Source of the DNA: Kordia aestuariivivens
Lineage (GTDB): Bacteria; Bacteroidota; Bacteroidia; Flavobacteriales; Flavobacteriaceae
Assembly: GCF_014397005.1 (NCBI RefSeq)
Contig: NZ_JACGWS010000008.1
Location: 62,001 to 126,000 of the forward strand
Direction of reading: 5' to 3'
Length of the DNA: 64,000 nt
Shown: positions 36,105-57,300 of the stretch, one piece after another
Layout: every line of letters begins with the position of its first letter
Position numbering within the stretch: the stretch's first letter is position 1
Program-made: the position numbers and the translations under genes
Notes under the pieces: model-generated
The model's database searches: none
The model's input: only the letters and a program-made list of their open reading frames with translations
What the model was told of the DNA's origin: nothing

Positions 36105-36767
36105 TTATGATTTCACGGCTTTCTTAGTTTCCAAAATATTCCCATCAACTACGGTGCGAATCAAATAGATTCCTTTTGGTTGTGTTGACAAATCAATTTG
36201 TGGAATTTTTGAAAGTTTCGTGTGCGTTTTGGTTTGAATCAATTGACCATTCATATTAAAAACTTCCACTGTAATTGTATTGTATGTTTTATCCAGCTGT
36301 AGCTGAAATAATCCATTTGCAGAAGGATTTGGGAAGAGAGAAGTTAAACTTTCATTCGTAGAAATTCTTTTGAAATCTTCGCTTACAGTTTCAGATGTCA
36401 TAGTAGTGGGACAACAACACCATTTTGATGAACAAATAGTTCCTCCATACGCTACAATTGTTACAGCTTCTAATTTCTCCCACTCAGAGTTGAGTGTAAT
36501 CGAAAATTCTTTTTGATCACCAATTATAATTTCTTTTGTTTCAAACCCTAAATAGGAAATCACTAAAGTATCTTTTGGATGTGCGTCAAACGCGAATTGT
36601 CCCTTTTTGCCTGTAATTTTTCCTTCTTTTGAATTTTTCACGATTACATTCGCGTCAGCAAGAACATTTTTATCTTCGTCATAGACAGTTCCTGAAATTG
36701 TGTTGCTTTGCGCGAAGCCAAAAAAAGTAATACTGAAAAATAGTGTGAATAGTAAAGTTGATTTCAT
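36105..36767 (-). CDS. Small T9SS protein with carboxypeptidase-regulatory domain and Cys cluster
   Basis: 220-aa exported protein: signal peptide (about 1-19), CarboxypepD_reg-like beta-sandwich (about 22-92; ISGTVYDEDKNVLADANVIV, DTLVISYLGFETKEI), a linker LEAVTIVAYGG followed at once by the cysteine-rich CSSKWCCCPTTM, then a type A T9SS tail (about 140-220, ending YLIRTVVDGNILETKKAV). The linker mimics the start of a SusC plug region (EVTVVAYG in the macroglobulin at 38905), but no plug follows. So it looks like a TonB-receptor N-terminal domain re-used on a T9SS-exported carrier. Function unknown; the CCC cluster could bind metal. Confidence 0.82.
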   Translation of the reverse strand: MKSTLLFTLFFSITFFGFAQSNTISGTVYDEDKNVLADANVIVKNSKEGKITGKKGQFAFDAHPKDTLVISYLGFETKEIIIGDQKEFSITLNSEWEKLEAVTIVAYGGTICSSKWCCCPTTMTSETVSEDFKRISTNESLTSLFPNPSANGLFQLQLDKTYNTITVEVFNMNGQLIQTKTHTKLSKIPQIDLSTQPKGIYLIRTVVDGNILETKKAVKS

Positions 36768-38904: not shown

Positions 38905-41900
38905 TTACTCCACTTTAATCCGAATACCTTTTGTATGACTTCTAAATTCTGGCGCGTACATGCTTTCTATAGTGGTGATTCCATTTGAAAATTCCCCCGA
39001 ATTGTTCACTCGAACTTCATATTCTAAGATAAAAATACCTTTCGGAATTCGGTCAAAAAAGAAATTTGTGCTTGCATCACGCGTGCTTTCATAATATCCA
39101 ATTCCATCTTGCCATTTGTAACGCGATAATACATTTACAGGTTCTAAACCTGCCGCACGCATATCTTTTAAGTGAATAAATTCAGCGTTTTTTGTGTTGG
39201 TAATTGTCAGACGAACGGTAATTAAATCGCCAATAGTCAGTGATTTTTTAGCAAGTGGCACTAAGGCTTCTTCGTTGTTTATATTTTCTTTTACATACAA
39301 CTCTTTGGTAACTTGTAACGAGACATTATCATTTTGTGTGATGTTTTCCAATTCTTCAAAATATTGCCAATATACACCTCCAAAACTAGCTGTTTTACCA
39401 TTGTTTTGAATCTTAATTGTTGCTTTATCTTTTGTAATTGCTGCTTTGTTCCAAGAAGTTTTAAAATAACCTGTACCAGCTTCTTTTTCGGTTTCGTTTA
39501 ATTTTTTTGTGTTGATTTTCTCCGTTCCTACAGTCACGATTGTATTGTCTTTGATAGAAACGAATTCCTTCGGATTCAACAATAATGCATAAATCGCTTT
39601 TGTGGTAGCTTTTGTCGTTGCCCATTGCGAAGTTTGTTTTTGTTGCAACAACCACAATTGCAATTCTTGAACAATCTCATCATTTTTTGTAATTTCTGAA
39701 AAAGCTTCAATCAATAACGCTTGTTTTTCTATCGCGGATGAACTGTAATAACGTGAATTTGTAAACTCTTTCCAATACATGCCAGATTCCGTAGTTTTTA
39801 CGGCAGTTTCTTCTAAAGAATTCATGATTTTCTTTGCGTCGCTGTGTTTGCCCATGCGTTCTAATGAAAGTGCTAACATTGCTTTTTGTTCCAATGACAA
39901 TAAGATCCAATCTTTTTGTAAAACGTCTAGATACCGATTCATTGTTCTTTTTACATCTTTTGAAGTGTTGATGTGATTTTCCAATAGGCTTCGGATATAC
40001 AAATAGCGTAATTGTGAAACGTAATTTTCGTTGCTTGGCGATTTGAGATTCTCTGAATTCATTTTTAAAAATTCCACATCTGCATATTTGCAAGCGTTTT
40101 TCATGATGCTGTACAAGTCTGATTTTTTATCAGTAATCACATTCAATTTTACCAAATGCGCATACGTTTGTAAGATGTGAAGTGTGATGTATCCGTTTTC
40201 GTTTCCACCAGCAAACCATGGAAATCCACCAGAACTTTTTTGTAAATCTTCTAACTTCAACCACATTTCTAATTGTTGTTCTTCTAAAAGTTTTGGATCA
40301 AATAATTGTGCCAAGCGTTGTTTCTTTTCGGTTTCTGAAGCTGCATCGCGAACCCAAGGAGTTTCTGAAATTAACAAGCTTTTCAATTCGGAGTTTTTCT
40401 CTAAATCTGATACCAATTGTCCGTTTGCTTTCCACGATTCAAAGACTTCTTTTATTTTAGGAGAACTTTGCAAAATATGTGTCACAAGTACGTTGGCATA
40501 CAAACGCGAGAAAGTTTGCTCGGCACATTCATACGGATATTCCAATAAATATGGCAACGATTGTATTGCGCTCCACGTTGGATTTGACGTGTATTCTAAA
40601 GTCAATTTGTGTTGCTTCAAGCTTGCACTTGTGTTGTTGGCAAGTTTGCTAAATGTCACTTCTTTTTCTTCACCAGCTTTGACCCAAATTGGTTTTGCTT
40701 CCGTGACAAGAATACTATTTTTTAGTACTGGCAACGCACTTTCTTCTCCATCCGAGAAATTTCCCGATTTAGCGATTACTCTATATTGAATAGCATCAAA
40801 ACCTTCTGGAATATAGAGTTTCCATGATACATTTGTATTGCCTTTCGCATCAATTGTAAAGGATTTGTTTTTTTCTTCTAGATGAATTTTTGCATCTATA
40901 GATTCCATCGTAAGTGCATCAAATAAACGTAATGAAGCAATTCCTTTGGTTGCTTTATTTTGAAGATTGACAATTTTAGACGTAATGACAATTGTATCTT
41001 TTTCACGTAAAAAACGCGGCATATTTGGCACAACCATCAATTCTTTTTGTGTGACTGCATTTTTTTCAATGCTTCCGAATATTCCATCTTTTTGATGTGC
41101 TACTAATTGAAATTTCCAACGCGTTAATGATTCTGGTGCTTCAAATTCGACTAATACATTTCCTTCGGAATCCGTTCGCAAATGCGGATAGAAAAAGGCA
41201 GTTTCGTTTAAGTCTTTTCGCGTTTCAACAGTATCTAAATCTTCTTCTGTTAGCCCGACAATCACTTGCATACCATCAATAGTTTCTGTACGCGTTCCGT
41301 ATTTTGTGGTAATAATAACAACTCCGTTTGCACCTCTAGCTCCATAAAGTGCCGTAGCTCCTGCATCTTTTAAAACACTCATGGAAGTAATATTATTTTG
41401 ATTCAAATTTTTGAAAGCATTTTCATCCACAGGAACACCATCTACCACAAATAATGGAGCGTTATTTTGTTGTAACGAACTAGTCCCTCTAATGATAATA
41501 ACACCATTTGCACCGGGTTGTCCACTTCCCGTAGAAATATTTAATCCGGCAGAAGAACCTTGTAAAATTTGATCTAATCTGCCATCTCGTATCGTACTTA
41601 CAGATTCTCCATTTACGGTAATTAACGCAGCAACCGAGCTAACATGCCTCGTAGAAATTCCATAGGCAACAACCGTTACTTCTTCTAGTTGACTCATATC
41701 ACCTTGTAAGGATACATTGATATTGTTTTTAGCTTCAATAGGTATTTCTTGCGAAGTAAATCCTACGTAGCTAATGACCAATGTATCATCCGCAGAAGCA
41801 TTAATTGTATACAAACCATCAAAATCTGTTATAGTTCCTGTTGAAGTTCCTTTTATAACTACTGCTGCGCCTGGCAATGGCAATCCATCTTCATCAAATA

Positions 41901-44900
41901 TATGTCCCGAAATAGTTCCTGAAGAAGCCTTTGTGTGTTTTGTTTTTTTCTTCTCTTTAAGGCGTTTGATGTGTTTGTAATTAGTACTGAGTAAGTTGTT
42001 AAAGTTTAATCCAAACCAATTAAACCTTAAGTAGTTTCTAAAATTTGGAATGTTTATTTCACTCGTTATATTGTAAAATTTATTAGAATGCGAAACATCA
42101 AAATATGTATCTTCTACACGCGGTGTGGAATAACGACTTCTGTTAAAGTAATAGAAATTAAGATCCCAAGAATGTCGTTTGAATTGATCTAACGATTCAT
42201 CATACATCGAAGCTAATATTTCGGCATTACTACCTTTGTTTTCTACATCGAGAATTTTAAATCGCCATGTTTCTTTTTGTCCCGGTTGGAGTTTGTTGCG
42301 AAACGTTGAGGTTTTGATATCGAGAAATTTATTTTCTTCGTACAGACTGAATGTAAAATCTTCATAATCAAAGCTATTAAATTTTGTATGACTCATCCTA
42401 ATTGTGATGCTTTCCGTAAAGCTTTTATCAACAGGAATTTTTACAATTTTTGAACCTTTGTCAATACTTGTTGCTTGTGACAATACTAATTTTTCTTTGT
42501 GAAATAAATGCAGTTGTACATTCAGCGTATCATCGCGCAAAGCGGTAGAAAGCTTTAGTTTTACATAACCGTCATCTCTGTAATCGGTATTTAATACAGT
42601 ATATTCAAAAAGTTTCTGATCGGGCAAATACGTGTCGTCAATATTGGTAAGTGTAATTTTTTGATCAACAAAAATGGTGTCTTGCACGGTTTCATCAAAA
42701 GTAAAACCTTCAACAATATAACTGCCTGATGTCCAAGAAGTAGCATTAAACGTATGTTTGGTGTTTTTTTCTGTATTGAAATCTACATTGGCAACGAGTG
42801 CTCCTTTTTCCCATTGGTCTTTATTTTCGCTTGCTGTATACGAATCATGCGGAAATTGCTTGACGAATGCTGCTTTGGAAAGCGTTTGAATTTCAGGAAA
42901 ATCCCAAGGACGTTTGCGCACTATACGTTCCGGACTTTTTAGTTTGTATATTTTTAAATTTCCATTGATGGTTACAGGAACACGGTTTACATCTCTCGCA
43001 TTGATGGTAATTTCCAAAGGATTTTTGCGATCAGATTTCCATGGCATTTCCAATCTAAAATCAACTCCTTCCGAATTGACAATGATTGTTTTTTCAGCAG
43101 TTTGCGTTTCTCCGTTAAGGTCAATTACTTCAATAGAAACCTCATAACTGTATGCATATAAATCTTTTATGTCAATTGTTTCATCAATTGTAGTTGCAAA
43201 CGGAATCGTAAAGTTTCCTTTTGCATCCGTTTGAATGGTTTCTTCAGCAATGATGGTTTCTTTTAGATACTCAGGATATTTTTTTCTTTGTTGGTATGCA
43301 ATGTTTGTGCTACGGTTTACGCTGTAGCTTACTTTGGCATTTGTAATTGCGCTTCCTAATAATGCTTTTGCTTTTCCAGTTATTTTTACAGAATCTTTGA
43401 ATTTTATGTTTTTAGTCAATTCGTCGAGTGTTACTTCAAAACGCGGTCGTTTGTATTCTTCTACTTGAAAATAGAATTGCGTAGCATCAAACTCGTCTAA
43501 GTAATCCCAAAACGGATGTTCTTCTTCTTCGTAATCATCATCTTCATCCACTTCAATCAAATATTCGCCCGTAATGCCATTTTTTGGAATTTTGAACGAA
43601 CCACTAAACGAACCATATTCGTTGGTTTTTAAGCGAAATGTTTTTAGCTCACTTTCTTGCGATTCCAGGATCACTTGACAATATACATTTGGAACTACGG
43701 AACTGACACCATTTTTTTGTTGGAGCAAAATTCCTTTAAAATACATTGTTTGTCCGGGTCTGTAAATGCTTCGATCTGTAAAAATAAAAGGCTTGGCTTT
43801 TAACTCTGTATTTTCGTCCGTGTCGCCTTTTTCATAATTATATCCTAAAGATGTATTATTTGTATACAACGTATCATTTTTAAAAGTGATAAACTTTTTG
43901 ATACTTCTTTTTCCTTCACGCTTGCGAATTCGAGCATTTCCTAACCAATCGGTTCTCGCTATTTGATTGATAATTTTTTTCTTATCAAAAACTTTAATTG
44001 TTGCATTGTGGATTGGTTTTCCTGTTTCACGATGTACAATCGTATGCACATTTTCATCATTGAGTTCCGTGATTGTTTCAGATAAATTGGTCTTTTGAAT
44101 GATCGTATACGAAAATATATTCTTCCCTTTTTCGTCGCTTGAAACATCAGAAAATAGAACCAAATATCTCCCCAAAGGAAGTGCGGGAATGCTAAGTTCA
44201 GTAGTGTGTTGGTAATAATCTTTTGGCATTTCCGGAAGGTATAATTGTTCCAAAACTACCTTGTGATTGTTTATGTAATCTCTTATCACAGAATCACGTT
44301 TGTTGAATTGTATATTTTCTAAAAATGTATGTGGAATGCGGTACGTATTTACCAAAATAGAATCTACACTTCTAAGTTTTACTTGTGCAAGCGAAGGTTT
44401 GTTTGGCACACTAAACGATTCCATTTTGAAACTTAAAACGTGTCTTAAAATATTTTTTTTGAGTAATTGACATTTGATGCCGCCTTCCGAAGTTGGATAT
44501 TTTGCAACCATCGCTTCTGTAATCGCCAATGCGTCAACGCGAAGCTGATCAAAATTGGGGATTAAATACGTCCGGTAACTCGTAGAAGAAGTTTTAAAAT
44601 AATGACCCGCAATTTCATACTGAATTAAGGCTTCTACAGGATCATTTTTATACAGTTCAGTCAATTCTTCTAAAGCCTTTACATACAGTTCACGGCCTAG
44701 TTGTTCACTTGTTTTACCACGAACAAACGCCAATCGTTGCAATACAATATCTAGATACGCTTCTTTGTTATTTTTATAGATTTTTTCAAGTTTTTGAAAC
44801 AGTTGCATTGTGTTTGTGCGCGCTATTTCATCAAAATCGGTAGTGTCAAATTTTCGCTTCAGAAACGCATCGCCTAATAAAAAATCATTTGATCCATACG

Positions 44901-45546
44901 TATACGAATCGCCTCTTTTATGATTGTACGGAATCTCATTTTTGTAAAATTCCAACATATTATACACTAAAATATCATACAAGCTAGATCGAAAAATTTT
45001 CGTGTTTTCCTTTCCGTCCAAAAACGCCATATAATCTTCTACAGGAAGTTGTAGTAAGGTTTTTTCTTTCTGTATGGAATGTTGAAAATGTTTGTGGATT
45101 TGTGTGATAAAAATACGCGCATTCCACAAACTAAGATCTGCGGGAATGGTATCGGAAGCGATACTAGAGCGCGAACGAATTTTGTATTGGTATTTTTTAA
45201 AATATTGAAATAAAAATCGGGCGTATATATTTTCTAAAATAGCATTCGTAGGAAATGATTGTTTTGCAATTTCTTTCTGTAAACTTTCTAAAACTGTGAC
45301 CTCTGAAGCTTCTGTAATTAGCAATGAAAACTTAGCACTGTATACAAAACTCTTTACTAGTTGCTCGGCATTTTGTTCCGTAGCTGCTTTTTTATGAATA
45401 CGTTGTAAAATTCTATTGGCAGATGCTAATTTCCCTTTCAATTCAAGGGTTTCCACCTTTTCCCAATTCTTTTCATAATTGTATTGAGCAAGGCTAAACT
45501 GAAAGCAAAAAAACGTAAAAATACTAATGAGGTAAAAATTCTTCAT
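38905..45546 (-). CDS. Alpha-2-macroglobulin with embedded SusC-like carboxypeptidase-regulatory and TonB-plug segment
   Basis: 2213-aa exported protein. Signal peptide about 1-20 (FSLAQ), an N-terminal helical region (about 25-400), MG-type beta-sandwich domains (MG2 stretch RSIYRPGQTMYFKGI near residue 590), and the thioester motif CAEQ (Cys1674-Gln1677) in PYECAEQTFSR, preceding the TED and C-terminal receptor-like domains. Between about residues 1205 and 1440 lies foreign sequence: a CarboxypepD_reg domain (SGTISGHIFDEDGLPLPGA), VTVVAYG, and a SusC-type plug with DGVPVDENAF, SVLKDAGATALYGARGANG and VVIITTKYG. The paralogue at 54344 has only a short linker there. Macroglobulins trap proteases by thioester coupling. 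No lipobox and no PBP1c neighbour. No frameshift seen. Confidence 0.93.
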   Translation of the reverse strand: MKNFYLISIFTFFCFQFSLAQYNYEKNWEKVETLELKGKLASANRILQRIHKKAATEQNAEQLVKSFVYSAKFSLLITEASEVTVLESLQKEIAKQSFPTNAILENIYARFLFQYFKKYQYKIRSRSSIASDTIPADLSLWNARIFITQIHKHFQHSIQKEKTLLQLPVEDYMAFLDGKENTKIFRSSLYDILVYNMLEFYKNEIPYNHKRGDSYTYGSNDFLLGDAFLKRKFDTTDFDEIARTNTMQLFQKLEKIYKNNKEAYLDIVLQRLAFVRGKTSEQLGRELYVKALEELTELYKNDPVEALIQYEIAGHYFKTSSTSYRTYLIPNFDQLRVDALAITEAMVAKYPTSEGGIKCQLLKKNILRHVLSFKMESFSVPNKPSLAQVKLRSVDSILVNTYRIPHTFLENIQFNKRDSVIRDYINNHKVVLEQLYLPEMPKDYYQHTTELSIPALPLGRYLVLFSDVSSDEKGKNIFSYTIIQKTNLSETITELNDENVHTIVHRETGKPIHNATIKVFDKKKIINQIARTDWLGNARIRKREGKRSIKKFITFKNDTLYTNNTSLGYNYEKGDTDENTELKAKPFIFTDRSIYRPGQTMYFKGILLQQKNGVSSVVPNVYCQVILESQESELKTFRLKTNEYGSFSGSFKIPKNGITGEYLIEVDEDDDYEEEEHPFWDYLDEFDATQFYFQVEEYKRPRFEVTLDELTKNIKFKDSVKITGKAKALLGSAITNAKVSYSVNRSTNIAYQQRKKYPEYLKETIIAEETIQTDAKGNFTIPFATTIDETIDIKDLYAYSYEVSIEVIDLNGETQTAEKTIIVNSEGVDFRLEMPWKSDRKNPLEITINARDVNRVPVTINGNLKIYKLKSPERIVRKRPWDFPEIQTLSKAAFVKQFPHDSYTASENKDQWEKGALVANVDFNTEKNTKHTFNATSWTSGSYIVEGFTFDETVQDTIFVDQKITLTNIDDTYLPDQKLFEYTVLNTDYRDDGYVKLKLSTALRDDTLNVQLHLFHKEKLVLSQATSIDKGSKIVKIPVDKSFTESITIRMSHTKFNSFDYEDFTFSLYEENKFLDIKTSTFRNKLQPGQKETWRFKILDVENKGSNAEILASMYDESLDQFKRHSWDLNFYYFNRSRYSTPRVEDTYFDVSHSNKFYNITSEINIPNFRNYLRFNWFGLNFNNLLSTNYKHIKRLKEKKKTKHTKASSGTISGHIFDEDGLPLPGAAVVIKGTSTGTITDFDGLYTINASADDTLVISYVGFTSQEIPIEAKNNINVSLQGDMSQLEEVTVVAYGISTRHVSSVAALITVNGESVSTIRDGRLDQILQGSSAGLNISTGSGQPGANGVIIIRGTSSLQQNNAPLFVVDGVPVDENAFKNLNQNNITSMSVLKDAGATALYGARGANGVVIITTKYGTRTETIDGMQVIVGLTEEDLDTVETRKDLNETAFFYPHLRTDSEGNVLVEFEAPESLTRWKFQLVAHQKDGIFGSIEKNAVTQKELMVVPNMPRFLREKDTIVITSKIVNLQNKATKGIASLRLFDALTMESIDAKIHLEEKNKSFTIDAKGNTNVSWKLYIPEGFDAIQYRVIAKSGNFSDGEESALPVLKNSILVTEAKPIWVKAGEEKEVTFSKLANNTSASLKQHKLTLEYTSNPTWSAIQSLPYLLEYPYECAEQTFSRLYANVLVTHILQSSPKIKEVFESWKANGQLVSDLEKNSELKSLLISETPWVRDAASETEKKQRLAQLFDPKLLEEQQLEMWLKLEDLQKSSGGFPWFAGGNENGYITLHILQTYAHLVKLNVITDKKSDLYSIMKNACKYADVEFLKMNSENLKSPSNENYVSQLRYLYIRSLLENHINTSKDVKRTMNRYLDVLQKDWILLSLEQKAMLALSLERMGKHSDAKKIMNSLEETAVKTTESGMYWKEFTNSRYYSSSAIEKQALLIEAFSEITKNDEIVQELQLWLLQQKQTSQWATTKATTKAIYALLLNPKEFVSIKDNTIVTVGTEKINTKKLNETEKEAGTGYFKTSWNKAAITKDKATIKIQNNGKTASFGGVYWQYFEELENITQNDNVSLQVTKELYVKENINNEEALVPLAKKSLTIGDLITVRLTITNTKNAEFIHLKDMRAAGLEPVNVLSRYKWQDGIGYYESTRDASTNFFFDRIPKGIFILEYEVRVNNSGEFSNGITTIESMYAPEFRSHTKGIRIKVE

Positions 45547-54343: not shown

Positions 54344-57300
54344 TCAATCTACAGTAATCCGAACACCTTTACTATGACTGCTAAATTCGGGTGCGTACAT
54401 ACTTTGAATTGTGGTAATTCCGTTAGAGAAATTCCCTTTGTTGTTTACGCGTAAATCGTATTCAAAGACGAAAATTCCTTTTGGTAAATAATCAAAAAAG
54501 AAATTAGTGCTTGCATCTTTCGTGCTTTCATAATATCCCAATCCATCTTGCCATTTATAGCTCGATAATACATTAATCGATTCCAAACCAGCCGCGCGCA
54601 TATCTTTCATGTGCACAAATTCCATTGGTCTGTCGTTGCGTAATTCGATACGAATTCGAATCAAATCGCCAACTTCAAGTTTTGTGTTTTCGTCAATGGC
54701 TGTGATAATTTCTCCAGTATCATTATACGTACGCTTGAATAATTTTTTGTTCAATTTCAACGAAGTTTCCGCTGTGGTAATCTTATCCAAATCTTCAAAA
54801 TATTGCCAGTACAATCCGCCCCAAGCGATTCCAGTTCCTTTCTTCGTCAAGGTTACGTTTGCCATTTCAGGTTTCACTTCGTTTCCGTTCCAAGAGGTTT
54901 TAAAATATCCTGTGCCAGCTTCTACTTTTACAGCTTCCAAATCTGCAGGCGTAATTGCTTTTCCACCAACGGTCACATCTACCATATCGGTTACCGAAAG
55001 CCAATCGCTTCCTTGCAACAATAACGCGTATACAGCATCCGACGTTTCTTTAGTGGTCGACCAGCGATTGGTTTGTTTATGCTTCAACAACCAAATTTTT
55101 AAATTATCTACCGTAGTGACATCCTTAGAAATTTCTGAAAATGCTTCAATTAGTAACGATTGCGTTTCAATGGGTGCTTGATACCAATACCAAGAACTCG
55201 TATTTGCTTTCCAGTACATACCCAATTCGTCACTCGTAATGCTATTTTCTTTCAGTGAACGTAGAATTGAAGTTGCCGTTTTTGGGTTGTCCATTCGGTG
55301 CGAAACCAATGCCATCAACCCTTTTGAATACAAACTGCGTTTCAACCAATACTTGTCAATCTGACCTTTATAATAGTCCATGATTGTTGCCACTTCCGTA
55401 GATTTTTTTAGCTCTGGAAAGAAGCTTCGCATGTATAAATAATGCAATTGCGAATACGACAAATGATCTTTAGAAAGATCTACTTTTTTATTGTACTTGC
55501 GTAAATTTTTATATTCCGTAACAAACTCTTGATCTAAATAGGCAATTGCTTTTTTAATAAGTTGCACACTTTCTGGAGAACCTTTTGGTTCAATTCCAAG
55601 TTTTCTTAAATGCCCAAATCCTGTTACAATATGTTGTGTGATGAATCTGTTTTTGCGTCCGCCAGAAAACCAAGGAAATGCACCTGAAGGCAACTGCATT
55701 TGTTTCAACTGTTGTAACGTTCGGGTTTCTTCATTTTTCATTCGATTGAGATCGAATAATAACGCAATTCGTTTTTTCTGTTCGGTTTCTGATTGTGCAT
55801 CACGTACCCAAGGTGTTTCTTGAATGATCAATGATTTTAATTCCTGATTCTTCTCTAAATTGCTCAGCAATGCATCCGAAGATTTCCACTGATTGAACAC
55901 TTCCTGAATTCTCGGATTGCTATTCGCGATGTGACTCGCCAACGCGTTTGCGTAATAACGTGAAAATGTTTGCTCCGAACATTCATACGGATATTCCATC
56001 AAATATGGCAACGCTTGAACCGCATACCAAGCCGGATTGGACGTTACTTCCAAACTCAATTTATGATGTTGCAACGTGCTTGAATTCGTCGTTGCGAGTT
56101 TATCTAATGTAAATGTTTTTGTTTCGTTGGAACGAATCCACATGGGTAAGGTTTCTGTCACTAACATTCTGTTGGATAACACTGGCAATGCATTTTGTTC
56201 TCCGTCGCTATATTCGCCAGCTTTGGCAATAATTGTATACTGAACTGCTTGAATGTTTTGTGGAATTTCCAAGGTCCAAGAAACTTGCGTGTTTCCATCA
56301 GCGTTTACTGAAAATGATTGTTTTGGTCCGCTTGTACTATCAAAAAGCACATTGTTTAAATCGTTTCCAGTAATTGGATCAACTAATAGTAAACTCGCTT
56401 CTCCAGTTAAATTCTTCTCAGAAAGGTTTGAAATTTTACTACTGATGACAATCTTATCGCCTTCACGTAAAAAACGCGGCGCATTTGGCAATACCATCAA
56501 TTCTTTTTGCGTGACTGTTGTCAGCATTTTTGTTGCCGAATTTAATGTTTTGGTATGTGCTAACAATTGTACTTTCCACTTCGTTAATGCTTCTGGTGTG
56601 GTAAAATTGAACGAAACATTTCCATCTTTATCCGTTTGTAATTGCGGAAAGAAAAATGCAGTTTCTTGCAAGTTTTTCCGAGGAACAACTGTTTCTATTG
56701 TTTCATCAGCATCTTTTGTGTTTAAAGCGTTGTCTGGGGTTTTATCATCTCCTAAACCATCATAATTTAAATAACCAACCTCGCTATTTGCTGAAAGACT
56801 CATTGCTTCAGTTTCAACGTCATCGCTCATTTCTATCACAGCCATCATTTTTTGTGAAGCGGCATCGTTGTTTGCACGCTTATATTTCATAGCACTTCGC
56901 ATACGTCCTTGATTTCCAAAATACAATCCGAATAAATTGAGACGATCAAACGATTGTGTTTTATAATACTTTTTATCTACGACTTGGTAATCTACAAAAC
57001 GAGTAATTCCAAAGCTTTTTTCTCCACTAATATGAATGCTGCTGTAATATCGTGGCGTATGTAGTGGTGAAAACTGCCATTGGTGTGCTCTGAATTCATC
57101 CAAAGAGGCATCGTACATGCTAGATAGTACTTCTGCGGCTACTTTTTCACCTTTTGGACCTTTGATACGGAAACTCCATGTTTCGTCTTGTCCAGGGGTT
57201 AATTTATCTCTGAATGTTGTGGTTTCTATCGTTAATTCCGATGGCGGATATTTCACCAATACAGGAATTTGTTTTACAATAAGGCTATTAAATACCGTTG

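Follow-up and report, generated by a model that had tools for sequence, protein, structure and literature searches.

Why does a bacterial alpha-2-macroglobulin carry the N-terminus of a SusC-type receptor? The question is raised by the gene for a 2213-residue protein in a 64,000-nucleotide stretch of the Kordia aestuariivivens genome (contig NZ_JACGWS010000008.1, positions 62,001 to 126,000; hereafter the window, meaning this whole stretch). The answer that we favour, with a probability of roughly 0.6, is that the insert is a self-decoy, a bait made in the likeness of those periplasm-facing segments of the cell's own envelope proteins that are exposed to proteases. According to this model, the macroglobulin would be a periplasmic protease trap that is sprung by cleavage of its bait. 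The bait would present what the cell's own SusC-type receptor has at its N-terminus, namely an N-terminal extension (NTE), a Ton box and a plug; in the receptor, this module would face the periplasm and could come out of the barrel and be cleaved. A periplasmic protease attacking the receptor would also cut the look-alike, whereupon i) the bait would be released and ii) the ensuing conformational change would hold the protease, the thioester motif CAEQ being present in the protein. Across the family Flavobacteriaceae, baits have been rebuilt again and again, chiefly with SusC N-termini as the source and in some species also with the TonB linker, the periplasmic part of LptD or GldJ.

Published work on both partners leads to this model. 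The Ton box (DEVVVTG) and NTE of SusC have been examined with mutants, and the SusC plug can exit the barrel and be cleaved (PMC7782687). In bacterial macroglobulins, cutting of the bait traps the protease (PMC4498604), and the tobacco etch virus (TEV) protease that cut the bait of MagD stayed stably trapped (PMC5764988). Since plugs can be ejected and cleaved and bait cutting leads to trapping, we read the insert as a decoy. The macroglobulin is probably periplasmic, as its family and an N-terminus resembling a signal peptide by eye suggest; no lipobox was noticed on inspection by eye.

The gene (38905-45546, minus strand) is one continuous frame, in which Pfam finds MG2, A2M and bMG10 in the order of a type I bacterial alpha-2-macroglobulin, and CAEQ corresponds to the CxEQ thioester of that type. 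Between the macroglobulin (MG) domains and the conserved anchor RKDLNETAFFYP stand an NTE, a Ton box and a Plug, the elements of a SusC/RagA N-terminus. An earlier note on this DNA had recognised such an N-terminus inside the macroglobulin, and Pfam, TIGR04056 (E 2.1e-78), TIGR04057 and a solved SusC homologue, the closest solved chain to the insert (E 3e-38 over 208 residues), all agree with it. Residues 1211-1420 cover positions 2-209 of the 981 of TIGR04056; because the match ends there (264.7 bits, against a cut-off of 368.25) and A2M sequence comes next, the insert lacks the outer-membrane beta-barrel. An assembly join or a frameshift, the latter already discounted in the earlier note, is ruled out by the continuous frame and by seven of ten further genomes of the genus, which carry the same architecture in full, uninterrupted by a stop. 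The structure model of the macroglobulin is mediocre (mean pLDDT 60.6, pTM 0.31). Of the two folds that the earlier note had proposed to look for, the NTE is indeed predicted as folded (pLDDT mostly 77-83), whereas the first half of the plug is modelled without confidence (below 50); the Ton box lies at 23-30.

Does the insert stand where the bait should be? In ECAM of E. coli after cleavage, the bait is disordered at residues 923-942, and residues 947-963 bind the C-terminal domain (PMC4498604). A profile alignment of the window region with E. coli YfhM matched 46 columns downstream of the insert, weakly (E 0.00024, probability 43), and by ungapped extrapolation from this weak match the anchor falls near ECAM 961. 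PF00207 begins right after the insert and, in YfhM, at residue 976 (profile position 8), right after the YfhM bait. From the alignment and the placement of PF00207 we therefore conclude that the insert occupies the bait position, as the earlier note had supposed; a bait region lies between the MG domains and PF00207, as expected of type I, and only its content is unusual.

Comparison with known systems makes the combination clearer. Type I macroglobulins such as E. coli ECAM/YfhM and Salmonella SaA2M share with the window protein the MG domains, the bait position, A2M, CxEQ and bMG10, but the bait of ECAM is a short disordered stretch (PMC4498604), whereas here it is a 210-residue SusC N-terminus. 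SusC/RagA transporters such as Bt1763 and RagA have NTE, Ton box and plug in common with it along 208 residues; unlike them, the window protein has no beta-barrel, and the module is embedded in a predicted protease trap. Pseudomonas MagD (Type II) is similar in that a specific protease, TEV, cuts its bait and stays trapped, but it is devoid of the thioester, and the available portion of that paper mentions no receptor-derived bait (PMC5764988). Myxococcus Oar and PopC provide a precedent, Oar being a TonB-dependent transporter (TBDT) that depends on its Ton box and interacts with a protease directly, although it serves secretion and the available portion of its description mentions no macroglobulin (PMC6434023). 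Among titles and abstract openings of open-licence PMC papers, no report of receptor pieces in macroglobulin baits was found.

The architecture is neither unique to the window protein nor uniform in Bacteroidota, the latter a possibility that the earlier note had raised. Among the matches listed in a search whose query spanned plug and A2M, the whole architecture occurs in eight of 11 genomes of the genus, the present one included, and, elsewhere in the family, in four of 26 genomes from other genera. With the A2M tail as query, 154 of 299 genomes of the family yielded a relative at E<=1e-30, and the first 115 rows of that list gave a set of 110 baits (L039-L148) after the chimeras L017, L018, L022 and L023 and the window paralogue were left out; L219 and L224, which end before the bait, and L226 are also outside the bait sample. 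Of 110 relatives from the family, 108 have CxEQ. With custom profiles, 17 of these 110 baits contain a full plug and 40 an NTE (15 both), 10 contain fragments only and 58 none. Public models at E<=0.01 match more broadly: TIGR04056 (SusC) in 63, CarbopepD_reg_2 in 40, Plug in 22, TIGR04057 in 21 and the GldJ model in 3, the others among 25 of the 31 matching families being other TBDT, NTE-like or beta-sandwich models, the type IX secretion system (T9SS) protein PorE (2 baits) and single weak matches. Of 56 baits from outside the family, seven match the public SusC model and one matches Plug. A scan of named genomes yielded 12 loci, including distant Bacteroidota and two Sulfurovum-labelled metagenome-assembled genomes.

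Short baits, defined as those below 150 residues (110 among 184 distinct genes), also carry traces of SusC. Compared with 13 SusC N-termini they reach a mean score of 58.0, against 37.6 for shuffled baits, 34.8 for segments downstream in the same proteins and 37.0 for segments upstream; compared with stretches of the SusC barrel, the baits reach 35.3 (Wilcoxon p 1e-14 for the difference from shuffles and 3e-17 for that from barrel). Of the 73 short baits from the family, 30 contain a Ton-box pattern (shuffled mean 1.0), 33 a GRVAG-like motif (0.4) and 34 an IRG-like motif (4.0), and the SusC profile scores at least 5 bits in 51, compared with none of 73 shuffled. The corresponding motif counts in 38 short baits outside the family are 5, 7 and 8 (shuffled means 0.2, 0.4 and 2.8). 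Simple decay of one full insert is insufficient to explain these short baits because the Ton-box pattern, which comes first in SusC, comes last in all 24 that hold another motif too.

SusC is not the only donor. Eight baits were searched against their whole own genome, and a donor was found for six, weakly in one of them. Besides itself, the L123 bait matches only a 944-residue open reading frame (ORF; E 7.9e-10) that is LptD (Pfam 1.8e-169). The L064 bait matches a 594-residue ORF (E 1.6e-9) that is GldJ (NCBIfam 1.7e-279) and, second, a 659-residue ORF (E 0.007), and that of L122, apart from macroglobulin paralogues, a 598-residue GldJ (E 1.8e-5; model 1.7e-244). The L154 piece matches several SusC-sized ORFs (best E 3.3e-7) and also, at E 0.011, a 270-residue frame that is TonB (TonB_C 7e-12 at 196-260), the match lying before TonB_C; matches to the TonB linker reach E 2.7e-10, in that case against the TonB of another genome. 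The L067 piece matches, at E 3.3e-6, an ORF of 1020 residues whose beginning resembles SusC, and L129 only, and weakly, a 931-residue ORF (E 0.041), again LptD (1.5e-173).

Baits were then compared with a panel of SusC sequences (13 N-termini, 13 barrel stretches and eight full proteins), two TonB, four LptD and three GldJ sequences and 51 proteins of the window. A donor (SusC, TonB, LptD or GldJ) was matched at E<0.01 by 91 of 137 family baits, 12 of which had been chosen for having a plug, and by 67 in the 110-bait set; shuffled baits (0 of 193), downstream segments (0 of 193) and upstream segments (0 of 192) matched none. No bait matched a SusC barrel stretch, none of the 599 matches to full SusCs extends beyond residue 249 of about 1040, and only one of the 51 window proteins, the NTE-bearing product of 36105-36767, was matched (E<0.05). 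The TonB matches lie at residues 96-176, ahead of TonB_C, and those to LptD precede the barrel model, except for one piece of L153. Six baits combine donors, often in rearranged order; L153 unites SusC, TonB and LptD. The donor parts of these protein families face the periplasm. GldJ and SusC, together with a T9SS sorting tail on one protein of the window, would fit a flavobacterial family.

This variety bears on the two roles that the earlier note had considered, a bait mimicking the cell's own receptor and docking on SusD/TonB machinery. In the second, the Ton box of the bait would bind TonB, so that the trap would be brought to the energised TonB system or be pulled by it. The Ton box of the insert keeps its SusC position, LxEVVVxGxG is part of the consensus of the 110 baits, and 42 of 56 SusC-profile hits in the short family baits cover the Ton box, above any other part; because it is the best-kept element of the short baits, docking retains some share of probability. 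Yet it is not apparent why the LptD, GldJ and TonB-linker pieces at the same place should dock on TonB, the plug motifs are kept in the short family baits as well, the Ton-box pattern is missing from 43 of those 73, and its place after the other motifs is unlike SusC, the motifs being often scrambled. That several donors contribute periplasm-facing parts at the same place favours a decoy over docking, which we consider unlikely, and the receptor-mimicking bait is the role that has gained.

How old are the inserts, and what keeps them? In a plug tree of 37 A2M and 23 TBDT rows, whose bootstrap was unsettled and in which TBDT row L001 is a long branch, a single clade of A2M plugs is rejected (approximately unbiased (AU) test, p 3.5e-8), and with it a single ancient capture. 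Inserts of the genus group with the genus SusC L019 (100/99) and L130 with SusC L025 (100/99); plugs have been captured repeatedly. A tree of 184 macroglobulins requires a minimum of 53 changes of bait class (shuffled mean 74); for the full plug the minimum is 14, of which 10 are forced by starred branches. In 13 bait-donor pairs, 48-87% of the residues match the donor, and identical residues share their codon about as often as codon usage predicts (45 of 118 in the window protein, expected 51.4; L062, 16 and 13.0; L154, 4 and 6.7), which does not support recent copying of DNA. Among seven orthologues of the genus, mean identity to the window protein is 62% in the plug, 57% in the NTE and 80% in the A2M segment, compared with 44-55% in upstream segments and 33% in the linker before the NTE. 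Codon matches near chance together with conserved residues make the captures look old and constrained. A donor in the own genome scored highest in six of eight cases (L062, L123, L122, L064, L043 and L154, the last three by small margins), each being compared with only 2-4 orthologues, or five for L129. A mobile DNA origin of the insert was also considered and rejected; in five plasmid records its DNA was matched only in part, four of the matches being to annotated SusC or TonB receptors and one unannotated. Separately, the genus orthologues L229 and L234 differ by a synonymous rate (dS) of at least 0.86 in every segment through the NTE and of 0.27-0.47 from the plug onward, which suggests recombination with a breakpoint inside the insert.

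Could the bait loop simply tolerate insertions, accepting foreign DNA so that pieces of the numerous SusC donors are passing debris of little function? The fast turnover of bait classes and the 37 Plug matches in the genome would fit, as would the fact that inserts resemble the genus SusC (0.57-0.68) about as much as each other (0.56-0.71), SusC N-termini being 0.94 alike. However, the residues are still donor-like although synonymous sites look saturated, the plug is better conserved than upstream segments, and in the pair L229-L234 its nonsynonymous rate (dN) is 0.135 with a dS of 0.474. Debris is, moreover, hard to reconcile with SusC matches that are all N-terminal and with window proteins of which only the NTE-bearing one is matched. 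We regard this explanation as rather improbable. A folded spacer or binding module, for instance for an outer-membrane partner, would fit the NTE, which is conserved and predicted to be folded, but the short and often scrambled peptides that many relatives hold at the same place and the unconfident model of the first plug half make it very improbable.

Several observations weigh against reading the bait as a decoy. Full inserts retain whole domains, beyond what a cleavable peptide needs, and the prominence of the Ton box in short baits would also be explained by TonB binding. In two of the eight cases (L080 and L129) the donor from the own genome is outscored; the L103 bait found nothing convincing in its whole own genome (best E 0.47), and the bait of the window paralogue found no donor in a whole-genome search. 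No panel donor is matched at E<0.01 by 43 of the 110 baits, L103 included, and outside the family only six of 56 baits have one. Of the 137 family baits, few match LptD (5), TonB (4) or GldJ (3), and the L153 LptD piece enters the barrel model by about 10 residues. Because LptD, GldJ and TonB were first noticed in particular baits and then tested, the donor list is not a blind sample, and the donor counts come without a whole-proteome control.

Whether the baits of the family as a whole are a self-portrait, each a stretch or mosaic of the periplasmic, protease-exposed segments of the cell's own envelope machines (chiefly SusC, but also TonB, LptD and GldJ) kept by selection at the protein level, is in our judgement an even bet. 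On this reading, a protease harmful to the cell would betray itself by cutting the bait. Plant immunity offers a likeness, since its decoys copy the true targets of attackers. What bacterial macroglobulins guard against, and where the specificity of their baits comes from, are open questions in the field. If the decoy reading is right, the sequence of a bait would reveal which envelope parts face proteolytic attack, and swapping baits would be a direct test. It would also mean that bacteria possess an immune decoy that is made from self and renewed by repeated capture.

Positions of the features are collected in Table 1. The paralogous macroglobulin of the window aligns with the 2213-residue protein on both sides of the insert (49% over 789 residues downstream), and Pfam and NCBIfam find no SusC-type domain in it, which bears out the earlier note's comparison of the two genes.

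Table 1. Features of the two macroglobulin genes, with positions in the window.
Feature	Position	Strand	Evidence
Type I-like bacterial alpha-2-macroglobulin gene with receptor-derived bait, 2213 aa	38905..45546	-	ORF list and Pfam
MG2 domain, residues 587-674	43525..43788	-	Pfam PF01835, E 1e-15
Captured SusC N-terminus at bait position, residues 1211-1420	41287..41916	-	TIGR04056 E 2.1e-78; solved SusC homologue E 3e-38
NTE domain (CarbopepD_reg_2), residues 1212-1292	41671..41913	-	Pfam, E 2e-19
Ton box LEEVTVVAYG, residues 1287-1296	41659..41688	-	Sequence; SusC counterpart DEVVVTG (PMC7782687)
Plug domain, residues 1307-1409	41320..41628	-	Pfam PF07715, E 9.7e-13
SusC/RagA signature, residues 1386-1415	41302..41391	-	TIGR04057, E 5.7e-16
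Conserved anchor RKDLNETAFFYP, directly after bait	41185..41220	-	Sequence comparison
A2M domain (PF00207), residues 1449-1535	40942..41202	-	Pfam
Thioester motif CAEQ, residues 1674-1677	40516..40527	-	Sequence motif
bMG10 domain, residues 2077-2200	38947..39318	-	Pfam
Paralogous macroglobulin without plug, 2024 aa	54344..60418	-	ORF list, Pfam, alignment
Bait region of paralogue	56678..56917	-	Own-genome search: sole match is itself

The SusC gene whose sequence comes closest to that of the insert is on the same contig (G000 contig C45, about 164005), about 60 kb from the macroglobulin; this distance is 35-45 kb in G002, G003, G005 and G010, about 107 kb in G004 and about 2 Mb in G009, and in G001 the two are on separate contigs. 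A Pfam scan of 13 neighbouring genes in the window did not find pbpC, the gene expected next to a type I macroglobulin. A protein with an eCIS_core domain (PF13699; 37435-38853, plus strand) adjoins the macroglobulin gene. Some baits hint at other sources. L171, L172 and L193 resemble other TBDT plugs by eye, with no NCBIfam model in support, and the distant relatives L173-L175 have an NTE-like stretch in the bait and no plug. The L207 bait holds a D-x-DGDG stretch, possibly from an OmpA-like protein, and one of the 56 outside baits, presumably the same, matches a thrombospondin type 3 repeat (Pfam E 3e-4). Finally, the window encodes at 36105-36767 (minus strand) a protein of 220 residues that looks secreted and combines an NTE with a Ton-box-like VTIVAYG, a cluster of cysteines and a sorting tail of the T9SS; here, too, the N-terminal module of SusC is used without a barrel.

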